Virus record (IMG/VR): IMGVR_UViG_3300046747_000116
Location: 1 to 27,693 of that record
Source: a virus
Reading direction: 5' to 3' (one strand)
DNA length: 27,693 nucleotides
Position numbers and translations under genes: made by a program. The notes below the pieces were generated by a model. It was not told the DNA's origin. It worked only from the letters and a program-made list of their open reading frames with translations, and did no database searches. This document shows positions 1,910 through 27,693 of this stretch, one piece after another. Every line of letters starts with the position of its first letter. The stretch's first letter is position 1.

Positions 1910-3466
1910 TTGCTCATCCTGGTCGACATGAAGGCCGAAGCCGCGGAGCGCGAGATGGCTCGCCGCCACCTGGCGCACTTCGTCCGCTACCGGTTCAAGC
2001 GCGAGAAGAAGCCGCTGCTCTGGAATTGGCACCTGGACTACGTCTGCGAGCACCTGGAAGCCGTGACCCTGCGGCAGATCCTCCGGCTCATCATCAACAT
2101 CCCGCCGCGGTTCCTGAAGTCGATCGTCGCGTCCCAGTGCTGGCCGGCGTGGATGATCGGCCGCGAGAACGACCCGCGGAGCTCGATGGTGAGCGCCAGC
2201 TACGCCGCCGACCTGGCCTTCCGCGACTCGCGAAAGACCAAGGAGCTCGTGCGCGCCGACTGGTACACCGATCTCTTCCCGGCCGTCGACCTGGTGAAAG
2301 ACACCGAAGCCGAGTGGGAGACGTCCGGCGGAGCCTCGCGAGTCGCTGCCGGCGCGAACGGCGTCGTCACCGGCAAGGGCGGCGACCACCTGCTCGGCGA
2401 CGACCTACTGAAGCCCAAGGACGCCGGCAGCGAGGTCGTGCGCGAGAACACGAACGAATGGATCGGCGACACCTTCTACTCGCGATTCAACGACATCAAG
2501 ACCGGCACCATGACCCACATCGCGCAGCGGCTCCACGAGCGCGATCCCTCCGGCTATCTGATGGAGCTCGAGGGCAATCCCGACGCCGACAAGTGGACCA
2601 AGGTGATCCTGCCCATCGAGGGCCCGAGCAAGCCCACGGTCTACCACTACGGCCGCGTCTTCCACCTGCGCCGCCGGCACGAGCTCTTGCACGAGGCGCG
2701 CTTCGGCGCCGACCAGGTGAAGCGCTACAAGGCGATGCTCAAGACCAGCTACGAAGGGCAGTACAACCAGCGGCCGAACAAGATGGAAGGCGGAGCGCTG
2801 CGGCCGCGCATGCTGGTACGCCACCAGCGCACCGCTGAAGAGATCGTCAAGGAGTGGGGCCTCATCCCGAACATCTACCTCGATCTCGCGACCAAGGACA
2901 AGGAAGTAAACAAGGACGACCCGGACTACAACGTGATCGAAGTATGGGCGCGCGACCAGCTGCAACGGCTCTGGCTGCTCTTCGTGTGGCGCCTCCAGTG
3001 CTCGATGGACGTCATGGCCCGCCGGTTGATCGACGTGCGCAAGAAGTGGAAGCCGCGCTACATCAAGGGCGAGAAGATCGGGCTCCAGCACAGCTTCCGG
3101 TCGGTGCTGACGCTCCAGTGCAAGATCAAGAACATCCCGATGCTCCCGCTGCTCGACATGGACGCGAGCGAGGACCCGGTCCAGAAGGTGATCCCGTTCG
3201 AGGGCGCGCTCAACGGCGGCACGGTGAACATCCCCGGCAACACCACCTGGGAGCACGACTACTGTGCGGAGATGCGCGCCTGGCCGAAGGGCCGGCACGA
3301 CGACATGATCGTGACCAGCGGTTACGCCTGCAACGATCTCGATAAGACGCCGCCCGGCGACGCGCCCGGCAAGGTCGACCCGGAATGGGATCCCGGCAAG
3401 GTCACGGGCTCGCAGCTGCTCGCCGAGATCGAGAAGCGGGACGCCAAGAAGAAAGGTAAAAAATGA
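1910..3466 (+). CDS. Terminase large subunit
   Basis: This is the 518-aa packaging motor ATPase/nuclease. Residues 63-71 (NIPPRFLKS) are the Walker-A-like loop typical of large terminases, followed by a Walker-B-like acidic pair in HLLGDDLLKP (D164, D165). The segment YEGQYNQRPNKMEGG (281-295) is typical of the region before the nuclease domain. The nuclease domain begins around YLDLAT (D325) and ends with HDD (463-465), matching the RNase-H-fold nuclease of this family. The start is TTG 1910, directly after the upstream stop, with GGAGG at 1897-1901; an ATG at 1928 is possible but has no clear ribosome binding site. The length is normal. It moves DNA into the prohead through the portal and cuts concatemers. 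The stop overlaps the next ATG at 3463. Confidence 0.93.
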   Translation: MLILVDMKAEAAEREMARRHLAHFVRYRFKREKKPLLWNWHLDYVCEHLEAVTLRQILRLIINIPPRFLKSIVASQCWPAWMIGRENDPRSSMVSASYAADLAFRDSRKTKELVRADWYTDLFPAVDLVKDTEAEWETSGGASRVAAGANGVVTGKGGDHLLGDDLLKPKDAGSEVVRENTNEWIGDTFYSRFNDIKTGTMTHIAQRLHERDPSGYLMELEGNPDADKWTKVILPIEGPSKPTVYHYGRVFHLRRRHELLHEARFGADQVKRYKAMLKTSYEGQYNQRPNKMEGGALRPRMLVRHQRTAEEIVKEWGLIPNIYLDLATKDKEVNKDDPDYNVIEVWARDQLQRLWLLFVWRLQCSMDVMARRLIDVRKKWKPRYIKGEKIGLQHSFRSVLTLQCKIKNIPMLPLLDMDASEDPVQKVIPFEGALNGGTVNIPGNTTWEHDYCAEMRAWPKGRHDDMIVTSGYACNDLDKTPPGDAPGKVDPEWDPGKVTGSQLLAEIEKRDAKKKGKK

Positions 3467-4032
3467 ACTACGCCACCATTGTCGCCGATCCGCCGTGGCC
3501 CTACGGCGGCGAAGGGCGATTCGCCGCGTCGAAATCGTCCAAGGGGGACACCGGGTTAAGCGGAAAGGCTTCTAGCGCCAACCGCTATGGAGCCATGTCC
3601 ATCGACGCGATCTGCGATTTACGCCCACCAGCGGCCGATAACGCGCACTTGTACCTATGGTTTACTAACAGCTTCGCCGTCGAGGCGCATGGGATAGCTC
3701 AAGCCTGGGGCTTCGATCCTAAGACGATACTCACATGGACCAAGGTCAAGGGCGACGGCAAGCCGTCCATGAAGATGGGCTACTATTTCCGCGGCGCGAC
3801 CGAGCATGTGTTGTTCGCCGTGCGCGGATCGCTGCGCCTTCTGCCGCGTGAGGGAGTCCCGACTGCTATGTTCTGGCCGCGCACCGCGCACAGCGTCAAG
3901 CCCGACGCATTCTATGAGTTGGTCGAGCGGTGCTCGCCGGGTCCCTTTCTTGAACTCTTCGCGAGACGGAAGCGCCAGGGCTGGCACCACTGGGGAAACC
4001 AGGTGAAGAGCGATGTAGTCTTGGGTGGGTAG
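3463..4032 (+). CDS. MT-A70-family adenine N6-methyltransferase
   Basis: This 189-aa protein has the catalytic DPPW motif at residues 9-12 (ADPPWPY), as in MT-A70-type N6-adenine methyltransferases. Family-typical elements follow: AHLYLWFTN, GF.PKTILTWTK, a YYFRGATEHVLFAVRG block, HSVKPDAFYELVE and PFLELFARRKRQGWHHWGN. It would use S-adenosylmethionine to methylate adenine, most likely in phage DNA. Protection from host restriction is a common role of such phage genes, but the target sequence cannot be read from the gene. The start overlaps the terminase stop (ATGA). It lies between terminase and head genes, and uses codons rare in the neighbours (TTA, several A/T wobble positions), which suggests an acquired gene. 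No partner restriction enzyme is visible. Confidence 0.9.
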   Translation: MNYATIVADPPWPYGGEGRFAASKSSKGDTGLSGKASSANRYGAMSIDAICDLRPPAADNAHLYLWFTNSFAVEAHGIAQAWGFDPKTILTWTKVKGDGKPSMKMGYYFRGATEHVLFAVRGSLRLLPREGVPTAMFWPRTAHSVKPDAFYELVERCSPGPFLELFARRKRQGWHHWGNQVKSDVVLGG

Positions 4033-7410: not shown

Positions 7411-7510
7411 ACCCGGTATAAGCCGCCCGCAGAACGCCAGGCAGGGCAGCGGGCAGAGAATCCGCCGCGTGGAAGCCTGGAAGTCGGCGAGCGATCGACG
7501 ACGCGATAGA

Positions 7511-7540
7511 CCCCGGCCGTAGCGCACGGCTGGGGTTTTT
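7511..7540 (+). terminator. Rho-independent terminator after portal
   Basis: A 10-bp stem, CCCCGGCCGT (7511-7520) with ACGGCTGGGG (7526-7535), including one G-T pair, closes a 5-base loop and is followed by five T residues. It lies 100 bases after the portal stop and upstream of the tRNA gene. Confidence 0.88.
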
Positions 7541-7588
7541 CGTTGAATGGCCACTGGCGTTTGCCAGGATCGCCGGCGTTGGCCGCCT

Positions 7589-7682
7589 GGGGCCGCTGCT
7601 CGGCGGATAGGAGCTTCCGGCGTTGTAAACCGGACGGATGTCCCGCAAGGGCTCCCAGCAGGTTCGACACCTGTCGGCCTCG
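7589..7682 (+). tRNA. Class II tRNA, Ser-like body, anticodon probably UGU
   Basis: The cloverleaf can be drawn by hand. The acceptor is GGGGCCG (7589-7595) with CGGCCTC (7675-7681), 7 pairs with one G-T. The D stem is GCTC/GAGC (7598-7601, 7611-7614). The T arm is GCAGG/CCTGT around the canonical TTCGACA loop (7658-7674). The discriminator is G7682; CCA is not encoded. Between the anticodon and T arms are 24 bases that form their own arm, so this is a class II tRNA (Ser/Leu/Tyr type). G at the discriminator and a CCGG-rich anticodon stem resemble tRNA-Ser. A 7-base loop GTTGTAA gives anticodon TGT (threonine ACA codons) but needs a C-A mismatch at the last stem pair; a 9-base loop would give a perfect TCCGG/CCGGA stem and an unclear anticodon. 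Identity is therefore uncertain. Confidence 0.7.
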
Positions 7683-7890
7683 ACGGTCAACATCAAAAAC
7701 GTTCTCCCGGTTTTGACGGGGGCGCCGAGGCGGCAAGATCCCGGCCGGCGTGGTGATGGTCAGCGAGGACGGTAGACGGTTCGACTCCCAGCGGGCGACG
7801 GCCCTATAGCTCAGCGGATAGGGGTAGCCAATCCCCGACGTGTCGCGAGCGATCTCGGCACGATAGAGCGGCCTCGACATCACCACGATC

Positions 7891-7917
7891 CCCCAGCCTT
7901 CGGGCTGGGGTTCTTCG
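7891..7917 (+). terminator. Rho-independent terminator before scaffold gene
   Basis: A perfect 8-bp stem, CCCCAGCC (7891-7898) with GGCTGGGG (7903-7910), is capped by a TTCG tetraloop and followed by a T-rich run interrupted by C/G (TTCTTCG). It probably ends the transcript carrying the tRNA region, and the decamer motif starts right after it at 7918. Confidence 0.85.
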
Positions 7918-7927
7918 TTCTTACTGT
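7918..7927 (+). promoter_or_regulatory. Decamer TTCTTACTGT, copy 2
   Basis: Exact copy of the decamer, placed between a terminator and the gene starting at 7961. This arrangement (terminator, motif, gene 34 bases later) is what a promoter for the scaffold/capsid genes would look like. Function is inferred from position and repetition. Confidence 0.5.
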
Positions 7928-7960
7928 CGGCGCACGGGCCCGCCGGCCATCGTCGCCGGC

Positions 7961-9352: not shown

Positions 9353-10612
9353 ATGCGTTCCCTCATCACCGCTGCCATGCTCTTCGGGCTGGCCATCCTC
9401 TGCGGGCCGGCGCTCAACGCCGCGGACCTGCATTCCATCCACCAGCACGCGGACATGACCGGCTTCGGCCTGGTCGCGCTCTGCGGTGCGCTCTACCTGG
9501 GCATCCAGTGGGCCAGCGGCACGACCAGCTTCACCCAGGAAGAGATCGATTACATCGCCGAGAACGTCCTGAGCCGCCGCATCGCCGACAAGAAGGTGAA
9601 CCCCCTCGACCGCGTCGAGGACCCGGTGATGGAGATGATGATGGCTCGATCGAAGGAAGTGGGCCCGCCCGTCAAGGACGGCTTCAAGTTCTTCGTCAAG
9701 GGCAAGCGCGGGCAGAAGCTCCAGTTTTGGGACGGCGCGGACATCCTCACCTTCGAGAACCGCCACACCGTCACCGAGATGGTCTTCGACGTCGGCCGCT
9801 GCCACATGGGCTTCGAGCTCCTGTACCAGTTCCTCGAACAGCAGGGGATCGTGATCGACTACCGCAAGGGCATCCAGCAGGGCGGTCCCAGCCGCGCCAT
9901 CGGCGCCGAGGTCGTCTGGAACGTCGTCGAGGATCATCTCGACAGCGTGATGGACGACTGGGCGACCGACATGCGCAAGCGCTTCTGGCGCGCGAACACC
10001 GACCAGGCGAAGGCCTGGGCCGGCGTCGACGCGCTCTTCCCGGCGACGACCACCTTCACCGGCACCATCGGCGGGCGGCCGCGGTCGAACCCGCTCTTCC
10101 AGCACCACGTCGTCACCGCGCTGACCAAGACGAACTTCCAGCTGAACTTCGTCAACCAGGTGAAGCTGGCGAACCGTCGCGCCGGCAAGTCGAAGATCGA
10201 GATCTTCGCCTGCGGCGACGACGCCATGCAGGTGCTCGTCGACCTGTTCAGCGGGACCGACACCGTGGCCGGCAAGTTCGACTACAGCCGCGCGAAGGAC
10301 ATGGCGGCGAAGAAGGGCGAGAAGTACAACGTGGCGCTCCCGCAGGACTGCTTCATGTACGAGAACTCGCTCATCATCAACTCGCCGGTCTTCGAGGAGC
10401 TCGACGTCGAAGAGCCGACCGCCAACCCCACCTGGGGCAAGCGGCTCTACGGCTTCAACCCGGCGCACTTCGGCATCATCCCGGTGAAAGACCAGGAGAA
10501 GGTGATGCACGGCGCCCCGTACAACCAGATGCTCGAACGGACGAGCCTGCATGGTCAGTACGTCGAGTGGTGCAACCAGCCGGGCACCCAGCTGGTCGGC
10601 GTCTTCAGCTAG
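9353..10612 (+). CDS. Major capsid protein with N-terminal hydrophobic leader
   Basis: The 419-aa protein directly follows the scaffold-like gene. From about residue 56 it reads like a capsid protein of podovirus type: FTQEEIDYIAENVLSRRIADKKVNPL, then a long alpha/beta body with PLFQHHVVTALTKTNFQLNF and, near the end, HFGIIPVKDQEKVMHGAPYNQM. Residues 1-23 (MRSLITAAMLFGLAILCGPA...) look like a signal peptide, and residues 36-52 (TGFGLVALCGALYLGIQ) form a second hydrophobic stretch. Such a leader is not usual in capsid proteins; it could be removed by a protease or the real start could lie inside. No clear ribosome binding site precedes the ATG at 9353 (GAGG is 17 bases away) nor the alternative ATG at 9455. 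It would form the head shell. Confidence 0.75.
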   Translation: MRSLITAAMLFGLAILCGPALNAADLHSIHQHADMTGFGLVALCGALYLGIQWASGTTSFTQEEIDYIAENVLSRRIADKKVNPLDRVEDPVMEMMMARSKEVGPPVKDGFKFFVKGKRGQKLQFWDGADILTFENRHTVTEMVFDVGRCHMGFELLYQFLEQQGIVIDYRKGIQQGGPSRAIGAEVVWNVVEDHLDSVMDDWATDMRKRFWRANTDQAKAWAGVDALFPATTTFTGTIGGRPRSNPLFQHHVVTALTKTNFQLNFVNQVKLANRRAGKSKIEIFACGDDAMQVLVDLFSGTDTVAGKFDYSRAKDMAAKKGEKYNVALPQDCFMYENSLIINSPVFEELDVEEPTANPTWGKRLYGFNPAHFGIIPVKDQEKVMHGAPYNQMLERTSLHGQYVEWCNQPGTQLVGVFS

Positions 10613-18919: not shown

Positions 18920-20494
18920 ATGCGAGGCCTCGGGCTCGGTCTTGGCTGGTCGCTCGGCACCTACGGCGAAGCCTTGGCTACCGATGTGCCGGTGAACGTC
19001 GTCGCGCCGACCGTCACGGGAACGGTCGTCCAGGGCACGGAGCTCGCCTGCTCCGCCGGCATCTGGTCGCAGATCCCCTTCAGCTTCACCTACCAGTGGC
19101 AGCGCGATGGCGTCGACATCGGCGGCGCCACCAGTCAGACCTACACCACCGGCGGCAGCGACCACGGCAAGGCGATCGGTTGCGTCGTCACCGCGCACAA
19201 CGCCTTCGGCGCGAGCTCGGCGACCGCGAGCTCGAACACCATCGGTCCGATCATCGTCGCCCCGGTCAACAGCGTCGCGCCGGCGATCACCGGGACTACC
19301 GGCATCGGCGACACACTCACCTGCTCGACCGGCACCTGGTCGGACACCCCGACGTCCTACGCCTACCAGTGGAAGCGAGACACGGTCGCCATCGTTGGCG
19401 CCAACGCGAGTACCTACGTGCTGGTGACTGCTGACGACACTCACTCGATCACCTGCACCGTTACCGCGACCAATCTCGCCGGCTCGACCGCAGCGACGTC
19501 GAACGCCGTCACTGGCGGAGCCTCTGGCCCGGTGAACACCGTCGCTCCTGAAATCACCGGAGGGGCCAGCGCGGCTTTCGCCTACGCCGGGCAAACGCTG
19601 GCCTGCGACGATGGCACCTGGACCGGAACGCCAACCTCCTTCACCTACCAGTGGACCAGCGATGGGGTCGACATCGGCGGCGAGACGGCCAACACCTATG
19701 CCGTCGTTCTCGCCGACGAGACGCACACCCTCGATTGCATCGTCACCGCCCACAATGCCGGCGGCGACACTCCGGCATCGTCGCAGGACATCGGCGTTCT
19801 GGTGTGGTCGCCGAACGCCTTTGGTGCCAACCTCCTGGCCTGGTACAACGCGAGCAAGTTGCAGGACGGCGGCGGCAGCCCCATCTCTGTCGATGGCACG
19901 TCGATCAAGCGCCTCGTCGACAACAGCCCAGGCGGCACCAACTATCACGATTACGCCGTCGCTGCCGGCACCTTCCCCAAGTACCGGAAGGCGAAGACCG
20001 ATACCAATTTCGGCCCGGCTGACTGCTTCGAGTTCGACGGAACGCAGGTAATCACCGTGCCGGCCCCGGCCATTTCCCTCTCCCAGCCGTTCACGGTATG
20101 GGTGGTCGCGCGCAGCGACGTCGGCGACAAGGCGCAGATGGGCGGGCTCGGCGCCTGGGCGCTCTTCATCGCTTCCGGCAGCGGGCAGCAAGCCTACCAG
20201 GCAGGTTCGTTCCGCGGCAGCACCGTGGTCAATCTCGGTTTGTGGTCCATCGTCATCATGCGCTTCGACAACGCAGGCTCCCCGAAGCTGCGCGTCGATG
20301 GGACGACCGCGGCAACCGCCACCCCCGGCACCGGCGCGGGCAGCAGCGTTGGCATCGGTGACTACGCATGGGGCGGCAACGCCATGACTGGATTCATGGC
20401 CGACGCCGGCGTTGTCGATGGCGCGGTGAGTGATGCCGACATCGCCCGCCTCGAACACTATCTCTCCGTCACCTACGGAGTCGACAGCCTGTGA
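18920..20494 (+). CDS. Ig-repeat and lectin-like virion protein, 524 aa
   Basis: The start is ATG 18920 after an overlapping TAAG. Residues 1-22 are a short glycine/leucine-rich leader. Three tandem repeats of about 90 residues follow, each with PVN-V-AP-ITG, a TLTCS-type turn with G-W, Y-Q-W-R-D-G, a T-Y strand and an IxCxVTAxN strand; this is the pattern of bacterial/phage Ig-like domains. The C-terminal region from about residue 300 is lectin-like (LamG-type), containing AYQAGSFRG, LWSIVIMRFD and LRVDGTTAATATPG, and closely resembles the C-terminus of the 15164 spike protein. Such proteins decorate the tail or head and bind surfaces. The product would be secreted or virion-bound; no classical signal peptide is present. 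The stop overlaps the next GTG at 20491. Confidence 0.7.
   Translation: MRGLGLGLGWSLGTYGEALATDVPVNVVAPTVTGTVVQGTELACSAGIWSQIPFSFTYQWQRDGVDIGGATSQTYTTGGSDHGKAIGCVVTAHNAFGASSATASSNTIGPIIVAPVNSVAPAITGTTGIGDTLTCSTGTWSDTPTSYAYQWKRDTVAIVGANASTYVLVTADDTHSITCTVTATNLAGSTAATSNAVTGGASGPVNTVAPEITGGASAAFAYAGQTLACDDGTWTGTPTSFTYQWTSDGVDIGGETANTYAVVLADETHTLDCIVTAHNAGGDTPASSQDIGVLVWSPNAFGANLLAWYNASKLQDGGGSPISVDGTSIKRLVDNSPGGTNYHDYAVAAGTFPKYRKAKTDTNFGPADCFEFDGTQVITVPAPAISLSQPFTVWVVARSDVGDKAQMGGLGAWALFIASGSGQQAYQAGSFRGSTVVNLGLWSIVIMRFDNAGSPKLRVDGTTAATATPGTGAGSSVGIGDYAWGGNAMTGFMADAGVVDGAVSDADIARLEHYLSVTYGVDSL
18989..19801 (+). repeat. Three tandem Ig-like coding repeats
   Basis: Three approximate direct repeats of about 270 bases encode Ig-like modules, starting near 18989, 19262 and 19529. 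Conserved positions include CCGGTGAAC/CCGGTCAAC at each start, CTACCAGTGG in the middle and an ATCGNCTGC-type stretch near the end. The copies differ at many wobble positions, so the duplications are not recent. Confidence 0.7.
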
Positions 20495-20958
20495 TCTGCA
20501 ACCTCACCCGCCTGGATGCCGTGACCATCTCGCACCACCTGCGGGCGAAAGACCGCCAGGAGGTCCTGGCGTCGACCGCGCTGGCGTCGATCGAGGCATG
20601 GGCCAACGCCGTCTATGCGCAGTCGCAGGTATCGGGCTGCGTGCGAGATCTCGACGGGCCCGTGGCGATGGGCGGCGCGGTGATCTTCCCGCAAGGCCAC
20701 ATGGCGAGCACCTGGTTCGTCGCCACGCCGCGGGTCACTGAGCCGAAGATGGCGATCCAGTCGCACCGCATGGCGCTCCAGCTTCACCACGATCTCGAAG
20801 GGCGGGGCGTGAAGCGGTGCATGGCGTGGGTGATGGAGTCGTACAAGAGCTCGTGCCGCTGGCTCGAACGCCTGGGCTACCAGCGCGAGGGACGGCATCA
20901 GTGCTGGGGCATCGCCGGCGAGACGTTCCTGAGCTACGCGCGCTTGGCGGGAGGGTAG
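20491..20958 (+). CDS. GNAT-fold protein like T7 gp13
   Basis: GTG 20491 overlaps the upstream stop (GTGA). The 155-aa product contains acetyltransferase-type features: a central strand segment AMGGAVIFPQGHMASTWFVATP, then a helix (KMAIQSHRMALQLHHDLEGRGV) and the ending YKSSCRWLERLGYQREG, which is the usual C-terminal GNAT motif. Phage proteins of this shape occur as gp13-like internal or assembly proteins of T7-type phages, often encoded just before the internal virion proteins, as here. An active acetyltransferase with a free substrate is unlikely from context alone; a structural or assembly role is more probable. It lies 3 bases before the next gene. Confidence 0.65.
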   Translation: MICNLTRLDAVTISHHLRAKDRQEVLASTALASIEAWANAVYAQSQVSGCVRDLDGPVAMGGAVIFPQGHMASTWFVATPRVTEPKMAIQSHRMALQLHHDLEGRGVKRCMAWVMESYKSSCRWLERLGYQREGRHQCWGIAGETFLSYARLAGG

Positions 20959-20961
20959 ACT

Positions 20962-21765
20962 ATGAGCTTCCACCTGCGGCACTTTATCAATACGAACGTC
21001 GTCCCCGGCGGCGGTGGCGGCAACTTCTTCGGCAACGTCGCGAAGCAAGCCTTCGGCGTTCAGGGGCTCAAGGGGACCGAAGAGGTCTACCGCGGCTTCA
21101 AGACCCACAACACCGGCAACGCCGAGCGCGCAGCGGCCGCAGCGCAGGCGGCGACCGTTGGATCGACGAACGACCGCATCGCGAGGATCCGCGCGCTCTA
21201 CGGCATCGACCCGACCGACGTCGGCGGTGCCGGCATGCACGCCGGGCTCGCCGGCGAAGCCGCCAGCAACAAGGCGGTGATCGACCGGCTGCTCGGCAAC
21301 CAGGAGACGGCCACGCTGAAGACCGGCGGGAACGAGCTCGACCAGCGCTTCGCCGGCGTCCAACGCGGCAACGAGCAGAACCTCGCCGACCGCGGGCTCT
21401 CCGGCGGCAGCGTCGACCAGGGCGCCTCGCGCTCGACCCTCGCCGACTTCCTCAAGGGCAAGACCGACCTCGCGCTGGCGGCGAGCAACGAGAAGAGCGC
21501 GGCGCGCGGCAATCTCGACCAGCAGCGCATGGGCTTGGAGACGCAGGTGCTCGCCGGCGGCGATCCGACCACGATCAACACCTTGACCCAGCAATCGAGC
21601 GCTATCAACCAGGCCGGCGCCAACGTCGTGCCGAACGCGCTGGCCGGCGTGCTCCAGCAGGGCGCCAACGTCTACGCGCAGGGCCAGGTCGCCAACGCCT
21701 ACGGTCGCCGCGGGCTGCCCGGTTCGACTCCCTACGTCCCGCGCGTCACCGGGAGCTACACCTAG
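20962..21765 (+). CDS. Putative internal virion protein, 267 aa
   Basis: ATG 20962 has GGGAGGG at 20949-20955 as ribosome binding site. The protein is Gly/Ala/Asn/Gln-rich, with a glycine run (VVPGGGGGNFFGN, about 14-26), an alanine-rich helix (AERAAAAAQAATVG) and a long low-complexity helical part (QRGNEQNLADRGLSGG, NEKSAARGNLDQQRMG, INQAGANVVPNALAG). Such composition is typical of DNA-ejection proteins of short-tailed phages. It sits between a gp13-like gene and a gp14-like gene. I cannot match it to one T7 protein, so the call is by composition and context. Confidence 0.55.
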   Translation: MSFHLRHFINTNVVPGGGGGNFFGNVAKQAFGVQGLKGTEEVYRGFKTHNTGNAERAAAAAQAATVGSTNDRIARIRALYGIDPTDVGGAGMHAGLAGEAASNKAVIDRLLGNQETATLKTGGNELDQRFAGVQRGNEQNLADRGLSGGSVDQGASRSTLADFLKGKTDLALAASNEKSAARGNLDQQRMGLETQVLAGGDPTTINTLTQQSSAINQAGANVVPNALAGVLQQGANVYAQGQVANAYGRRGLPGSTPYVPRVTGSYT

Positions 21766-21767
21766 CC

Positions 21768-22595
21768 ATGTGCGAACCACTCACCATCGCAGCGCTCGCT
21801 ATGGCCGCGGTCGGCACGGGCGCGACCATCGTCGGGCAGCAGGAAGCAGCCAGCGCCCAGCGCCGGACGATCTCGAACGCGCTGAACTACCAGGCGCAGT
21901 TGCAGCAGCAGCGCGGCAAAGCGGCCGACCAGCTGATCGGCAAAGCCGGGCCGCAGCAGGTCGCCAAGGACATCGGCGCGCAGCAGAGCGTTGCCACCGG
22001 CGCCATCGACCGCTCGGGGCAGATGCTCGACCAGCTGGCGAGCGGGCCGGGGACGGCGAGCAGCTACGCCGGTGTCACCACCGGGGCGGCTCGCGATGCC
22101 GCGGCCGCTGGCCAAGGCGAGGCGACGAACCAGGGCTTCCAGCAGTCGCTTCTCCAGGGCAATCGCAACCTGGCCGGGCTCGCCGCGAATCAGCAACTCA
22201 TCAATTACAGCGGCAACGCAGCGCTCCAGACGCTTCCGCAACAGCTGGAGCTCGCCGGGAACGAGGGCGAGGGGCTGCGCGTCGCCGGCGGGCTCGCGTC
22301 CGGGCTCGGTGGCGGCATGCTCAACTCTGCCATGTTCCGGGCCCCCGAGGGCTACGCTGGTGGCGGAGGTCCTGGCGTGACCCGCAACGCCGCCGGGCTC
22401 CCCAACACCGGCAGCTTCGGCGAGACGCCGGGCGCCGTGCCGGCCGGGGCTTCGCAGAACGGCAGCGCGGCCGCTGGCGGCGCTCTGGCGGCTCTCGCCG
22501 ATGGTCCGAACGGAGCGAAGAAGCCGCTCAAGCCGAAGAGCGCGGCGCTGGCCGACGCCTACAGGAAGAAACGAGCGCAGTATGCCAGTGCGTAG
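21768..22595 (+). CDS. Internal virion protein, T7 gp14-like, 275 aa
   Basis: ATG 21768 is 3 bases after the upstream stop; the open frame extends upstream but with shadow-like composition. The N-terminus MCEPLTIAALAMAAVGTGAT is typical of gp14-type internal virion proteins, which begin MC followed by a hydrophobic helix. A glutamine/alanine-rich helical part follows (QQEAASAQRRTISNALNYQA, QLQQQRGKAADQLIG), then glycine-rich segments (GGLASGLGGGML) and a basic C-terminus (KKPLKPKSAALADAYRKKRAQ). In T7, gp14 forms the outer-membrane pore during ejection; the same role is inferred here. Its stop overlaps the next gene, whose ATG is at 22582. Confidence 0.6.
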   Translation: MCEPLTIAALAMAAVGTGATIVGQQEAASAQRRTISNALNYQAQLQQQRGKAADQLIGKAGPQQVAKDIGAQQSVATGAIDRSGQMLDQLASGPGTASSYAGVTTGAARDAAAAGQGEATNQGFQQSLLQGNRNLAGLAANQQLINYSGNAALQTLPQQLELAGNEGEGLRVAGGLASGLGGGMLNSAMFRAPEGYAGGGGPGVTRNAAGLPNTGSFGETPGAVPAGASQNGSAAAGGALAALADGPNGAKKPLKPKSAALADAYRKKRAQYASA

Positions 22596-23601
22596 AATCC
22601 CCATAGGCGGCACGTCGTTCAACTACGACTTCCAAGACGAGCCCACCGGCATCGCCGGCGGAGTCGGCAACGCTATCTCCACCTTCCTGAAGGCTCCGCT
22701 CGCCCGCGCGCAGATCGAGCAGGACGAGGACGACCGGGCGCAGAGCAACTACGACCGCGCCCAGCGGCTCCGCATCGCGCAACAGCGCACCGACGACGAG
22801 CACCAGTACCGCATGGGGCTGATTCAGGAGCGGCAGAACGACAACGCGCGCAAGTGGATGGCCACGATCGGCACCGGGCTGAAGGGCGTGCTCGGGCCGC
22901 TCTTCGGCATGCACCACGGTTCGATGACCGACGCGCAGCGCGAACACCTGGCGCTGGAGATCGCGAAGGCGCGCAAGGAGAAGAAGGATTTCGGCGCGCA
23001 GGATGCGCTCAACGATCAGGACATCGAAGACGCGCACTACTACATCGACCACGGTGTTTTCCCGCATCGCGCGCCGGCGCCCGCTCCTGTGGTGCCGCAC
23101 GCGGCTGCTCCGCCGGAAGGCGCCGGGCTGGTCGGAGCGCTCAAGACCGTCGACCAGTACAACCCGGCGAACCTCATCCCCGACATCGACCCGACCGGGT
23201 TCACCGACCACGACGCCGTCCCGGCCGAGGAAGACCAGACCTTCCTCAAGCATCCCATCAGCCAGGCCGCGCGCTTCGTCGGCGACCAGATCTTCGGCGG
23301 AGGCGAGAAGAGCGTGCAACGGGTGAACCAGGCTTCACCCGTGAACGCCGGTTCACCCGTCCAGGCCGCGGCGCCGGCGATGCCCGCCACGCCGCCGGCC
23401 GCCGGCGCCCCCGTCGCTGGCAACGACATGCAGAGCGTCCAGATCGAGCGCACGCTCAAGGGACTGCACCCGAACGACCAGGCGAAATTCAAGGCGATTC
23501 TCGCCAGCGGCGACCCGCAAAAGATCGAGATGGCGAAGCACAAGCTCTTGACCCTGGCGGCGCAGCCGGCGCAGGGCGACAGCGGCGATACCAGCGAGTA
23601 G
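22582..23601 (+). CDS. Putative internal virion protein, 339 aa
   Basis: ATG 22582 lies inside the end of the previous gene (14 bases overlap) with GAAGAAACGAG upstream as weak ribosome binding site. The N-terminus MPVRRIPIGGTSFNYDFQDE is followed by a glycine-rich hydrophobic patch (GIAGGVGNAISTFL). A long charged coil comes next (RAQIEQDEDDRAQSNYDRAQ, RLRIAQQRTDDEHQYRMGLI), then a Pro/Ala-rich section (about 165-290) with an embedded VQAAAPAMPATPPAAGAPVA linker. A compact C-terminal helix region ends LKGLHPNDQAKFKAILAS. The arrangement fits a DNA-ejection protein between a gp14-like and a giant internal protein, similar to the gp15 position in T7-type gene order. I recognise no specific family. 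Confidence 0.55.
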   Translation: MPVRRIPIGGTSFNYDFQDEPTGIAGGVGNAISTFLKAPLARAQIEQDEDDRAQSNYDRAQRLRIAQQRTDDEHQYRMGLIQERQNDNARKWMATIGTGLKGVLGPLFGMHHGSMTDAQREHLALEIAKARKEKKDFGAQDALNDQDIEDAHYYIDHGVFPHRAPAPAPVVPHAAAPPEGAGLVGALKTVDQYNPANLIPDIDPTGFTDHDAVPAEEDQTFLKHPISQAARFVGDQIFGGGEKSVQRVNQASPVNAGSPVQAAAPAMPATPPAAGAPVAGNDMQSVQIERTLKGLHPNDQAKFKAILASGDPQKIEMAKHKLLTLAAQPAQGDSGDTSE

Positions 23602-23604
23602 CGC

Positions 23605-26600
23605 GTGAAGCCTGGCTTCTTCGACGACATCCTGCCGGATCCGCCGGCGCCTGCTCCCGCACCAGCGCCGGAGCCGCCAGCCCCCGTGCCGGCCGAAACC
23701 GGGATCTTCGACGACCTGCTGCCCGACGAGGGTCCCGCGCCGGCCTACGGCACGAACGCCGGGCTCACCGACGAGCAGGGCCAGCCGACCACGCCGGCTC
23801 CGTCCGGCTTCGGCTCGCTGCGCGGGATCCTCGACCCGAACGGCCGCGCGCCCGTGGTGCCCCGCCGCTCGATCGCCGAGCAGCTGGGCAAGCAGCCGCT
23901 CAACGGCTCCGAGATCTCGACCATCCTGGCGCAGCACGGCATCGACCCGGCGCAGGGCCCGGCGCTGCTGAAGGGGCTCACCAGCCAGGATCCGGGCGAC
24001 GTCGATGCGGCGCTGGCGCAGCTACCCCCGATCGAGCGCGCGACCGCGGCGAAGGTGCTGCGCGACACCAAGAAGCCGGGCGCCGGCGACCCGCTGAAGG
24101 ACGTCCTCGACTTCCATCAACGCCAGGCCGAGGGCCACGTCGGCAGGCTCCAGCGTGACGGCGGAGATCTCGAACCGGCGGCGCCGGTGCCGAACTCGAC
24201 CGCGGGCTCGACTCCGTTCCACGAGGACCCGCTGGCGCGCATCCAGTCGGCGCTGGCCGGCGTCATGGCGCCCCAGGGAGAGCCGGCGATGCCGACCACC
24301 GGCAGCAGCCAGGACAGCGTCGCCAGCCGCATCGGCGACACCCTGGCGGGCGTGGCGAAGACCCCGGCCGCGGTCCTGAACGAGGCGAAGCTCTCGATGA
24401 CCGGCGGCTTGACCGGCGCCTTGCGCGTCGGCGGCATGCCCGGCATGGAAGAGGTCGCCAAGCAGGAACGCGAGGATCGCGAGCGGCAGGCGAACGAAAC
24501 CGAGCAGACGGCCAGCCCGGAGCTCACCCGGCTCGCTGGGCAGTCGATCCCGTGGATGATGGGGCCCGGCGGGGCGCTGCTCGGCGCGACCGCGGCCGGC
24601 GGCGAGCGTGCCAACGAGGTCATGGACGAGGGCGGCAGCCGCGGCAAGGCGGCGACGATGGGACTCGGGGAGGCGGCGCTGTCGCTCCTGGCGCCGGCCG
24701 CGGTCCACAAGGTCGCCGGCGGCGCTGCGGGGCAGGTCGGGAAGGCGGTCGCCCGCGGGCTCGGCGACACCGCTGGTGCGGCCGCGGAACATGCCGTACT
24801 CGGCGCTCCCACCGGCGCGGCGCTGGCCGCGTCGACGGCAGCCGTCACCCTGGCCGGCGGCGACGCCGATCGGGCCGCCGAGCAGCTGAAGGACATCCCC
24901 AGCCAGGCGCTCGTGATGCTGGTCATGGGCGCCGGCACCGGGGCCGCCGGCCACGCGCTCACCAACGCGGACCACCGCTTGATCCTGCAAGAGCTCCAAG
25001 ACCGGGTGAACTTCGAGCAGCACGGCGCGGAGCGCGACCTCGAGCAGGCGAAGCTCGACCTGCTGTGGAAGCACATCAGCGACGAGCAGCCGCCGGACGA
25101 GTCGATTCCCGGCGAGCCGCCGAAGCCCAGCCCGAAGGGCCCGATCTCGCCGCAGGACGCCGCCACGCTGGCGAACACCAGCAAGGACACGTTCACGCCG
25201 CTGGCGCACGAAGCCGGCATCAGCCCCGACGTCCGCGGGCTCACTCGCGAGGCTCCGCTCGCCGACGAGCAGATCGTCCAGGCGCAGAAAGACGCGGAAG
25301 ATGCCGCCTTCGACAAGGCTTTCAAAGAGCGGCGCAACGACACCGCCGCCGGCGAGACGCAGGCGATGGGCGCGATGAAGACCGGCGCCTTCGAGCCCGT
25401 CGCGCGTCCCAACATCCAGCCCGAGCAGCGCGCCCCCACCGCCTCCATCGACGTCCCGATCGCGAAAGGAGAACCCCGTGCCGCAGGCGATAATCGACCA
25501 GTTCGAGAAGAAGTACCCCGGCCGGGGCAAGCAGGTCTACTACGCGACCGCGAACAAGGAGGGGCGCGACCCCGAGACGTTCAAGCCGAAGGCCAAGGCC
25601 AAGAAGAAGCCGCCGCGCAACGGGGACAAGAAGGCGGTGATCGGCTACCTGAGCGGCCGCCCGTAGCACCACCGCTGCCGCTGAAGGTCAAGGCCGACGA
25701 GGGCGAGGCCGGCTGGCAGCGCTTGCTCGCGGGCATGACCGACGCCGAGCGCGCGGATCCTCGCAACCGGGCGGTGATCGAGAGCGTCGGCAAGATCCCC
25801 GGCGACGAGCCCGGCAATCCGGTGAGCTCGCTCGGAGCGCTGTCGATGATGGTCGACGGTCGGCGCGAGCGCGCGATCCGCGAGGCCAAGAAGGTGGCCG
25901 CCGACAAAACCAACCAACCCACGAAAGGGGCTGAACATGGGCGTAATCCCGATCAACTTCCGCGGCAAGACCGCGCAGAACAAGGCCAAGGCGAAGGGCA
26001 AGGGCAAGCACAAGAAGCCCGTCCCGCCGAGGAACGGCAACAAGAAGGACGTGCTCGGCTTCCTGGCGGGCGGGCCGGGGGCGAGGGGGCAGAACACCCT
26101 CCAGGGCGACAGCATCCCGCGGTCGTCGAGCCCGGAGACGGAGCCGGACCCGGAGGACCCGAACGAGGAAGCGGAGAACGCGGCCGGGGAGCCGTAGCCG
26201 GACCCCAGCAGCCGGCGAGGGAGCCGATCGAGGCGCCCAAGGCACCCCGCCGCCGCGGTCCCAGGATCCCCGAGCTCGACAGCGGGCCGGACATCCTGAA
26301 CCACATCGCCGACGCCGGCGGGATCCGATCGAAGGCATCGGCGGCCGGCGAGCGGGCGAAATTCGGCGACTACGACGCGCTTCCTGACCTGCCCGGCGTC
26401 TACAACCGGATCATGCGCGGGAGAGGCCTGGGCGGCTCGGCGCCGGACGACATGGCCAGCCAGCTGAAGCGCAGCCACGGCATCGGCGACGGCACCACCA
26501 ATACCATGTGGAGGCTGATCCGCGAGGCGGTGAACGGGCGCCGGCACACCAGGGCGCAGGACAAGACCGGGTTCAACGACGAGCGCAACCGCGAGGTTCC

Positions 26601-27693
26601 TCGCGAGGACTCCACGAAAGGTCGCGAGACGGCCAACCCGGAGCCGGAAACGCCGTCTTCGGGCGAGGACAGCCGGGACAACCCCGACTTCCCGACGCCG
26701 TTCCGCGTGGAGAAGCCGGCCGAAGCCGGCGCTGCGCCACGTGGAACCGCATCACCTGCACCGATTGCAACGGAATCCGTCGAGCGCCTGGTCGGGCGCT
26801 ACGGGAAAGTTCGCGAGCATGCGGACGGCACGATCGAGATCGAGGGCCGGGGCGGCGCCACGATTCACGTCAAGCGCGTCGGCGAGCTCGGCCAGGGCGG
26901 CGCCGTGGGACAGTTCCAGCTGCTCGACCGGGACGGCCACCCGATCGGCGAGATCTCGCTGCTGAACGGCAAGGCGCAGGCGAAGACCCTGAGCCACGAG
27001 CTCGTCCACGCCTTCCGGGCGATGGGGCTCATCAACGACGCCGAGTGGCGGGCGCTCGCCGACCACCTGGCGACCCCCGACCGGATGGACGAGATCAACC
27101 GCCGGTATCGCGAGCACGGGATCGAGCTCACCCACGACCAGCTTCAGGAAGAGGCGGTCGCCGAGGCGATCGAGGACCGCAGCGCGGCCGGGCCGCTGCC
27201 GCCGGTCGGGATCTGGAAGAAGATCGCCGAGTTCTTCCACCGCATCGGCCGCGCGCTCGGGCTGGTGAAGCCCAGCGGCGAGCAGGTGGCGCGCGACGTC
27301 CAAGAGGGGCGGCCGCTGGAGCGCGAGCCGCGGGCCGCCGGCGACGGCGAGCGGCGCAACGCGTTACTGCCGGAAGAGGAAGATCCGGCGATCAAACACC
27401 AGCAGAAGCTCCCCTTCGACGAGAACGGCAACGAGGTCGCGCAGCCCGCGGAGAAGCCCGCGCCCGAGCCGCCGCCGGTGGCACCCGCTGCCGACTACCG
27501 GGAGGACATCAACCGCGGCAAGAGCAAGCGCGAGATGGGGCAGCAGGGGCTCTTCGACGAGGACAGCGAGGGCACCGCCGGCCAGCAGAAGCTTTTCAGC
27601 GTGCCGAAGCATCAGCTACCGGCCGGCGCCCTCGAGGCCGCCGTGAAGCACTTCGGCACCACGGACGACTTGAGCGAATCCGGCTATGTTCTG
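23605..27693 (+). CDS. Giant polyvalent internal virion protein (3'-truncated)
   Basis: A single frame is open from GTG 23605 to the right edge (at least 1363 residues, no stop); I checked it codon by codon. The N-terminus has two FDD(I/L)LPD copies (FFDDILPD, IFDDLLPD), typical of large phage virion proteins. Then come a disordered section, a hydrophobic Gly/Ala-rich stretch (about 312-450: GPGGALLGATAAGG, ALVMLVMGAGTGAAGHAL), and linkers. Around residues 894-980 (PDILNHIADAGGI...PGVYNRIMRGRGL) it resembles a large polyvalent protein associated domain. A zinc-peptidase motif HELVH (1131-1135) is followed by QEEAVAEAIED (third-ligand candidate E1183 or E1187). The visible end, SESGYVL, fits another polyvalent module. 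Two small genes are overprinted within residues about 625-687 and 778-864. The role is probably ejection or early host modification. Confidence 0.75.
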   Translation, partial: MKPGFFDDILPDPPAPAPAPAPEPPAPVPAETGIFDDLLPDEGPAPAYGTNAGLTDEQGQPTTPAPSGFGSLRGILDPNGRAPVVPRRSIAEQLGKQPLNGSEISTILAQHGIDPAQGPALLKGLTSQDPGDVDAALAQLPPIERATAAKVLRDTKKPGAGDPLKDVLDFHQRQAEGHVGRLQRDGGDLEPAAPVPNSTAGSTPFHEDPLARIQSALAGVMAPQGEPAMPTTGSSQDSVASRIGDTLAGVAKTPAAVLNEAKLSMTGGLTGALRVGGMPGMEEVAKQEREDRERQANETEQTASPELTRLAGQSIPWMMGPGGALLGATAAGGERANEVMDEGGSRGKAATMGLGEAALSLLAPAAVHKVAGGAAGQVGKAVARGLGDTAGAAAEHAVLGAPTGAALAASTAAVTLAGGDADRAAEQLKDIPSQALVMLVMGAGTGAAGHALTNADHRLILQELQDRVNFEQHGAERDLEQAKLDLLWKHISDEQPPDESIPGEPPKPSPKGPISPQDAATLANTSKDTFTPLAHEAGISPDVRGLTREAPLADEQIVQAQKDAEDAAFDKAFKERRNDTAAGETQAMGAMKTGAFEPVARPNIQPEQRAPTASIDVPIAKGEPRAAGDNRPVREEVPRPGQAGLLRDREQGGARPRDVQAEGQGQEEAAAQRGQEGGDRLPERPPVAPPLPLKVKADEGEAGWQRLLAGMTDAERADPRNRAVIESVGKIPGDEPGNPVSSLGALSMMVDGRRERAIREAKKVAADKTNQPTKGAEHGRNPDQLPRQDRAEQGQGEGQGQAQEARPAEERQQEGRARLPGGRAGGEGAEHPPGRQHPAVVEPGDGAGPGGPERGSGERGRGAVAGPQQPAREPIEAPKAPRRRGPRIPELDSGPDILNHIADAGGIRSKASAAGERAKFGDYDALPDLPGVYNRIMRGRGLGGSAPDDMASQLKRSHGIGDGTTNTMWRLIREAVNGRRHTRAQDKTGFNDERNREVPREDSTKGRETANPEPETPSSGEDSRDNPDFPTPFRVEKPAEAGAAPRGTASPAPIATESVERLVGRYGKVREHADGTIEIEGRGGATIHVKRVGELGQGGAVGQFQLLDRDGHPIGEISLLNGKAQAKTLSHELVHAFRAMGLINDAEWRALADHLATPDRMDEINRRYREHGIELTHDQLQEEAVAEAIEDRSAAGPLPPVGIWKKIAEFFHRIGRALGLVKPSGEQVARDVQEGRPLEREPRAAGDGERRNALLPEEEDPAIKHQQKLPFDENGNEVAQPAEKPAPEPPPVAPAADYREDINRGKSKREMGQQGLFDEDSEGTAGQQKLFSVPKHQLPAGALEAAVKHFGTTDDLSESGYVL
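25478..25666 (+). CDS. Nested small basic protein, 62 aa (copy 1)
   Basis: GTG 25478 has AAAGGAGA at 25465-25472, an excellent ribosome binding site with 6-base spacing. The gene lies wholly inside the giant gene in the next frame (+1 relative to it). The product is basic, with IIDQFEKKYPGRGKQVYYAT followed by NKEGRDPETFKPK and a lysine cluster (KAKAKKKPPRNG), then DKKAVIGYLSGRP. The (K)KYGKKKG...YYA pattern is seen in small phage proteins of unknown role. Its C-terminal PPRNGxKKxVxGxLxG motif recurs in the nested gene at 25937. In this stretch the giant frame reads low-complexity E/Q/G/R sequence, so this frame looks like the constrained one. Confidence 0.6.
   Translation: MPQAIIDQFEKKYPGRGKQVYYATANKEGRDPETFKPKAKAKKKPPRNGDKKAVIGYLSGRP
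25937..26197 (+). CDS. Nested small protein, basic then acidic, 86 aa (copy 2)
   Basis: ATG 25937 has AAAGGGG at 25924-25930 with 6-base spacing. It is nested in the giant gene in the same alternative frame as the 25478 gene. The first 50 residues are lysine-rich (TAQNKAKAKGKGKHKKPVPP, then RNGNKKDVLGFLAGGPG) and share the PPRNGxKKxVxGxLxG motif with that gene. The C-terminal 36 residues are strongly acidic (SSSPETEPDPEDPNEEAENA), which copy 1 lacks. The giant frame across this part is again G/Q/R/E-rich linker-like. The function is unknown. A basic head with an acidic tail could suit nucleic-acid or virion-protein binding. Confidence 0.55.
   Translation: MGVIPINFRGKTAQNKAKAKGKGKHKKPVPPRNGNKKDVLGFLAGGPGARGQNTLQGDSIPRSSSPETEPDPEDPNEEAENAAGEP

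Follow-up and report, generated by a model that had tools for sequence, protein, structure and literature searches.

The analysis presented here points to an unusual gene arrangement in an unclassified bacterial virus, in which two small paralogous genes, each with its own SD sequence (ribosome binding site), start and stop, lie inside linker-encoding stretches of a single giant gene. The small genes appear to hold the primary reading frame, with the giant frame overprinted on them, so that one locus would give three products; we consider this the probable reading of the region, and hold it with good though not full confidence. The window analysed is the whole IMG/VR record IMGVR_UViG_3300046747_000116, 27,693 bases long with 67% G+C. 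Its landmarks include genes for a terminase large subunit (1910-3466, phrog_38 match), a capsid protein (9353-10612, phrog_9953 match), an Ig-like or decoration protein (18920-20494, PHROG matches) and an internal virion protein (20491-20958, phrog_308 match, E 3e-13). The product of 18920-20494 contains repeats and matches both decoration and tail families of PHROG (Hoc-like head decoration, virion structural protein). Elsewhere in the record, the frame directly after the terminase gene (3463-4032) has a DPPW motif and, as we read its sequence, resembles an MT-A70-type adenine methyltransferase, and at 7411-7960, where the probable portal gene and the probable scaffold gene leave a gap, the forward coding phase is inconsistent and the minus strand is favoured in parts.

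The giant frame begins at a GTG at 23605 on the plus strand, downstream of the phrog_308 gene, and runs for 1363 codons off the contig end at 27693; it contains no in-frame stop, just as a sequence-only reading of this DNA had claimed. The SD sequence at its start is weak (-3.1). Its product is probably of a late structural, ejection or polyvalent type. It has no match in Pfam, NCBIfam, PDB, PHROG or INPHARED, and in comparisons with the T7-like ejection proteins (gp14/gp15/gp16) the neighbouring phrog_308 protein was the only one to match. The C-terminal part of the gene (26198-27693) encodes a zincin-like HELVH motif at about 26992-27006. An AlphaFold2 model of the segment around it (26764-27345) reached a pLDDT of 77 and a pTM of 0.64, and a fold search with this segment gave low-Z matches only, none of them significant. 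The label 'polyvalent protein' would draw on the HELVH motif and gene order alone, and the zincin-like domain is putative. At 26725-26790 the coding-phase signal of the giant gene is weaker and other frames are briefly favoured; this short stretch may be another insertion or an atypical linker.

Both small frames are in the +1 frame relative to the giant frame and lie wholly within it. Nested gene 1 (25478-25666, plus strand) starts with GTG at 25478, ends with TAG at 25664-25666 and encodes a 62-aa phage protein with a YYATANK motif; its SD sequence, AAAGGAGA, occupies 25465-25472 (dG -8.7). Nested gene 2 (25937-26197, plus strand) runs from ATG at 25937 to TAG at 26195-26197, encodes an 86-aa paralogue of nested 1, and is preceded by AAAGGGG at 25924-25930 (dG -7.2). 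The positions that the sequence-only reading had given for both frames, their SD sequences and their starts all hold, as does its placing of the two in the same alternative frame. It had also called the ribosome binding sites near-ideal, and this description is borne out: among 472 internal start codons the SD of nested 1 ranks in the top 2% and that of nested 2 in the top 4%, and these two are the only AAAGGRG sites on the plus strand of the 27.7 kb. Local structure at the starts is also low, being weaker than at about 94% (nested 1) and about 97% (nested 2) of sampled positions in the giant gene.

Codon phase also shows the nested frames to be genes. A codon-usage segmentation was trained on the other genes of the same phage, with phase log-likelihood expressed as giant minus nested frame. 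The best-fit breakpoints were 25465, 25672, 25924 and 26191: the switches from giant to nested phase fall exactly on the two SD sequences, and the switches back come no more than 6 nt from the nested stops. The nested 1 stretch scored -71.5 nats and the nested 2 stretch -90.1 nats, whereas windows of equal length in the other coding stretches of the phage never fell below +13.9 nats (n=6254) and +38.8 nats (n=5870), respectively; no other 63- or 87-codon stretch in the phage's genes approaches the nested scores. The GC3 of the giant frame, about 0.9-1.0 over most of the gene, drops to 0.40-0.65 over the nested stretches, where that of the nested frame is 0.90-1.00 (0.93-1.00 for nested 1). The coding signature of the inner frames is thus confirmed as an observation. 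The giant-frame signature returns at the nested stops, in the middle segment (25667-25923) and in the C-terminal part, with +99.1 nats over 25666-25935 and +97.9 nats over the first 101 codons after nested 2, in keeping with the earlier view that the giant frame is constrained again outside the nested stretches.

How the giant frame is kept together bears on the best surviving alternative, namely that its segments are distinct genes on either side of the small ones, joined because the frame happened to be open or because stops were lost, in a recent and possibly non-functional fusion. We think this improbable. Open giant frames arise easily here: in the phage's genes the +2 frame is open in 81% of 62-codon and 75% of 86-codon stretches, and when the K-rich nested peptides were recoded with random synonymous codons the giant frame stayed open in 39% and 21% of cases, or 8% jointly, which is not rare. 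Openness alone is therefore weak evidence. There is also a precedent in the hepatitis B polymerase and surface genes, where two genes on either side of a small one were subsequently joined by a newly arisen linker frame (PMC8227390). Against separate genes, the three giant segments share one frame with no stop anywhere and abut the nested genes with no non-coding gap. Moreover, after nested 1 the giant frame offers no start codon for 57 nt (the first is TTG at 25723, and the middle segment has no SD-bearing start), and after nested 2 it offers none for 215 nt (the first is ATG at 26413). Because the coding signature precedes any start codon, the middle and C-terminal parts would be translatable only by readthrough of the nested genes, and the sequence as it stands implies that the segments cannot be separate present-day genes, a candidate that was rejected on these readthrough-only segments. 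A fusion origin is possible; separate genes in the present day are a misfit. Finally, the third positions of the nested codons contain no T (0/148, with about 7.6 expected; P=0.0006 by recoding; 0/4925 gene windows), which hints that the giant frame has been kept open, although the test was picked post hoc and partly reflects the generally high GC3.

The suggestion that the nested products resemble real proteins is well supported by the phage homologues of nested 1 and by the paralogy of nested 2. Homologues of nested 1 are encoded by other phages in IMG/VR, with 156 candidate stretches passing tblastn with the family alignment. The invariant residues of that alignment are Y13, K18, Y22, A23, T24, A25 and K27 (Y..K...YATA.K). 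The relatives L003 and L097 begin MPQEII and L118 begins MPEEII at the same residue at which nested 1 begins MPQAII, so its start is conserved; nested 1 resembles the YYATANK proteins of L003 and L118 both in this start and in having every invariant residue. Stand-alone relatives of 49-73 aa exist, and the motif is also found within long proteins. Nearly all YYATANK relatives are AT-rich, and they are free-standing or fused in long proteins; unlike nested 1, none is nested in a long frame.

The YYATANK motif has no Pfam or NCBIfam model, and the family may be an undescribed head-associated one. In L118 and L010 the motif gene stands between the portal and head maturation protease genes, followed by the scaffold gene, in L003 it is immediately upstream of the major head protein gene, and in L114 it is beside the terminase gene. 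In these T4-like phages (L003, L010, L118) the genes near portal, protease and scaffold occupy the position of T4 gp67/gp68. In L003 (1014-1952), L118 (3001-4056) and L010 (887-1654) the motif is N-terminal in, or adjoins, head core, protease or scaffold genes. The position varies, with L007 and L113 among the relatives outside a head-gene setting and the copy in the window placed in a late gene after the internal-virion-protein gene. Since the motif gene sits among head genes in L118, L010 and L003, our best guess for nested 1 is that this small protein is probably associated with the head or core; as long proteins elsewhere contain the motif too, this role stays one that we infer. Structure prediction for nested 1 gave two helices, with low confidence beyond them.

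Nested 1 and nested 2 share the C-terminal motif PPRNG(D/N)KK.V.G.L.G, their alignment scores 83, whereas shuffled sequences reached at most 54, and tblastn pairs them with an E value of 3.5e-5 at 52% identity. We conclude from this that they are paralogues. The sequence-only reading had recognised neither this paralogy nor the membership of nested 1 in a phage protein family. Beyond the shared motif nested 2 is without known relatives, and a search with a DNA pattern for the motif gave no match. Substitutions between the paralogues number 10/6/10 by codon position over 90 nt, too few to tell the frames apart.

A second alternative, which we judge quite unlikely, is programmed +1 frameshifting at the SD-like sites, by which ribosomes would run into the nested TAG codons and yield two C-terminally truncated isoforms of the giant protein and no separate small proteins. 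At 25467-25477 the sequence AGGAG-AA-CCC-C looks like a +1 site stimulated by an SD, of which prfB is an example, and CCC-C can re-pair in the +1 frame. However, a slip site of this kind is missing from nested 2, each SD sequence is followed at a spacing of about 6 nt by a GTG or ATG in frame, the residue at which nested 1 starts is also where its homologues have a free start, and stand-alone relatives exist, as described above. Still less credible is a sequencing or assembly artefact in which compensating indels mimic the phase shift. The data are a single metagenomic contig with no relatives for comparison, but such an artefact would require two compensating indel pairs placed exactly at SD and stop, twice, and the nested units carry their own SD, conserved start and stop; assembly indels were rejected for this need for paired indels. 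The sequence-only reading had itself offered a frame correction or assembly error joining separate genes as its alternative, and a frameshift or assembly error is unlikely because the giant segments share a frame, are stop-free and are start-less for 57 and 215 nt. The idea that the small frames are open merely by chance, as GC-rich DNA allows, with the giant protein as sole product, can hardly be entertained and was rejected on the phase inversion: although 28% of 62-codon stretches in the phage's genes have an open +1 frame, the inversion of codon phase is unmatched in this phage and in eight other records, the SD sequences are unique, and there is homology to the proteins of other phages.

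Returning to small genes carried within a giant gene, codon usage suggests which frame is older. Across the nested stretches the nested frame correlates with the genome at r=0.91 and the giant frame at r=0.08 (Hotelling-Williams t=7.75, p=7e-10). Under a published criterion, by which a de novo frame resembles genome codon usage less (PMC8227390), the nested frame would be ancestral; with the small genes primary by this measure, the giant frame would be an overprint on them. The earlier proposal that the small genes occupy disordered linker segments of one giant gene is retained, whereas its notion that they were printed over the giant gene is reversed. The giant-frame product of these stretches is indeed linker-like: it had been described as low-complexity E/Q/G/R sequence, and we find it to be rich in Q/E/G/R/P, with 5-10% hydrophobic residues and 39-46% Q+G+P, whereas the N- and C-terminal parts of the giant protein have 21% and 23-26%, respectively. 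Published reviews note that proteins encoded by overlaps tend toward disorder (PMC8227390).

Based on these data we can outline how the locus might work. Ribosomes starting at 23605 would stay in the giant frame across both nested genes and produce a single huge protein, with the nested stretches as hydrophilic Q/E/G/R/P-rich linkers, while other ribosomes would start at the internal SD sequences and make basic proteins of 62 and 86 aa. Judging from sequence features, all three products are predicted to be translated. The small genes probably entered as SD-to-stop units of a length that preserved the giant frame, either both by insertion or one by insertion followed by duplication; insertion, rather than fusion, is the origin that we infer. 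More tentatively, and with less than even confidence, we suggest an SD-to-stop cassette that duplicates into the linkers of a giant virion protein, with GC-rich third positions keeping the giant frame open so that the cassette reads as a disordered linker.

The phage itself stands isolated among the genomes searched. No close relative was found in IMG/VR (queries: nested 1, the middle segment, the C-terminal part, the neighbouring virion protein, the capsid protein and a terminase alignment), in GTDB contigs (nested 1 and terminase), in INPHARED by tblastn (nested 1, parts of the giant protein, portal and terminase) or by blastn with 20000-27693. Relatives of the terminase reach no more than about 30-34% identity, and 47 terminase-related records gave no match to the C-terminal part of the giant gene. 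The same criteria, applied to 149 long genes in eight other high-GC phage records, gave no case, as against two in the window. The usual account of overlapping genes has a new frame arising inside an old gene, and the evidence here points the opposite way: intact small genes are carried in a giant gene whose frame is printed over them as linker, which suggests a cheap means of gene gain for GC-rich phages, with genes acquired at no extra length and a large protein left unbroken. Nested genes of this sort would probably escape gene callers that do not allow overlaps.

Same-strand, out-of-frame nested genes are well known in phages, as in phiX174 (B in A, E in D, and K) and lambda (Rz1 in Rz). 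The genes described here are like them in that a complete small gene with its own start signal lies in another frame inside a larger gene; they differ in that two paralogous small genes share one giant gene and in that the small genes, not the host frame, are primary by codon usage. We found nothing in the literature specifically on similar nested genes in phage giant genes. Zincin peptidases with HExxH are common in phage polyvalent proteins, and the parts of that account considered here mention no nested genes for them (Iyer et al., 2017; PMC5512222). The giant protein resembles those proteins, as far as they are described there, in being a giant late-region phage product with a zincin-like HExxH motif, here with no profile or fold match. 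A parallel in origin may be the spacer of the hepatitis B polymerase, for which the birth of a comparable linker over the surface gene has been proposed from codon usage (PMC8227390). In both systems a large multidomain protein reads across a small gene, and the overlapping stretch would be a de novo linker, although the viruses and proteins are unrelated, and the phage has two separate internal genes with SD-driven initiation.
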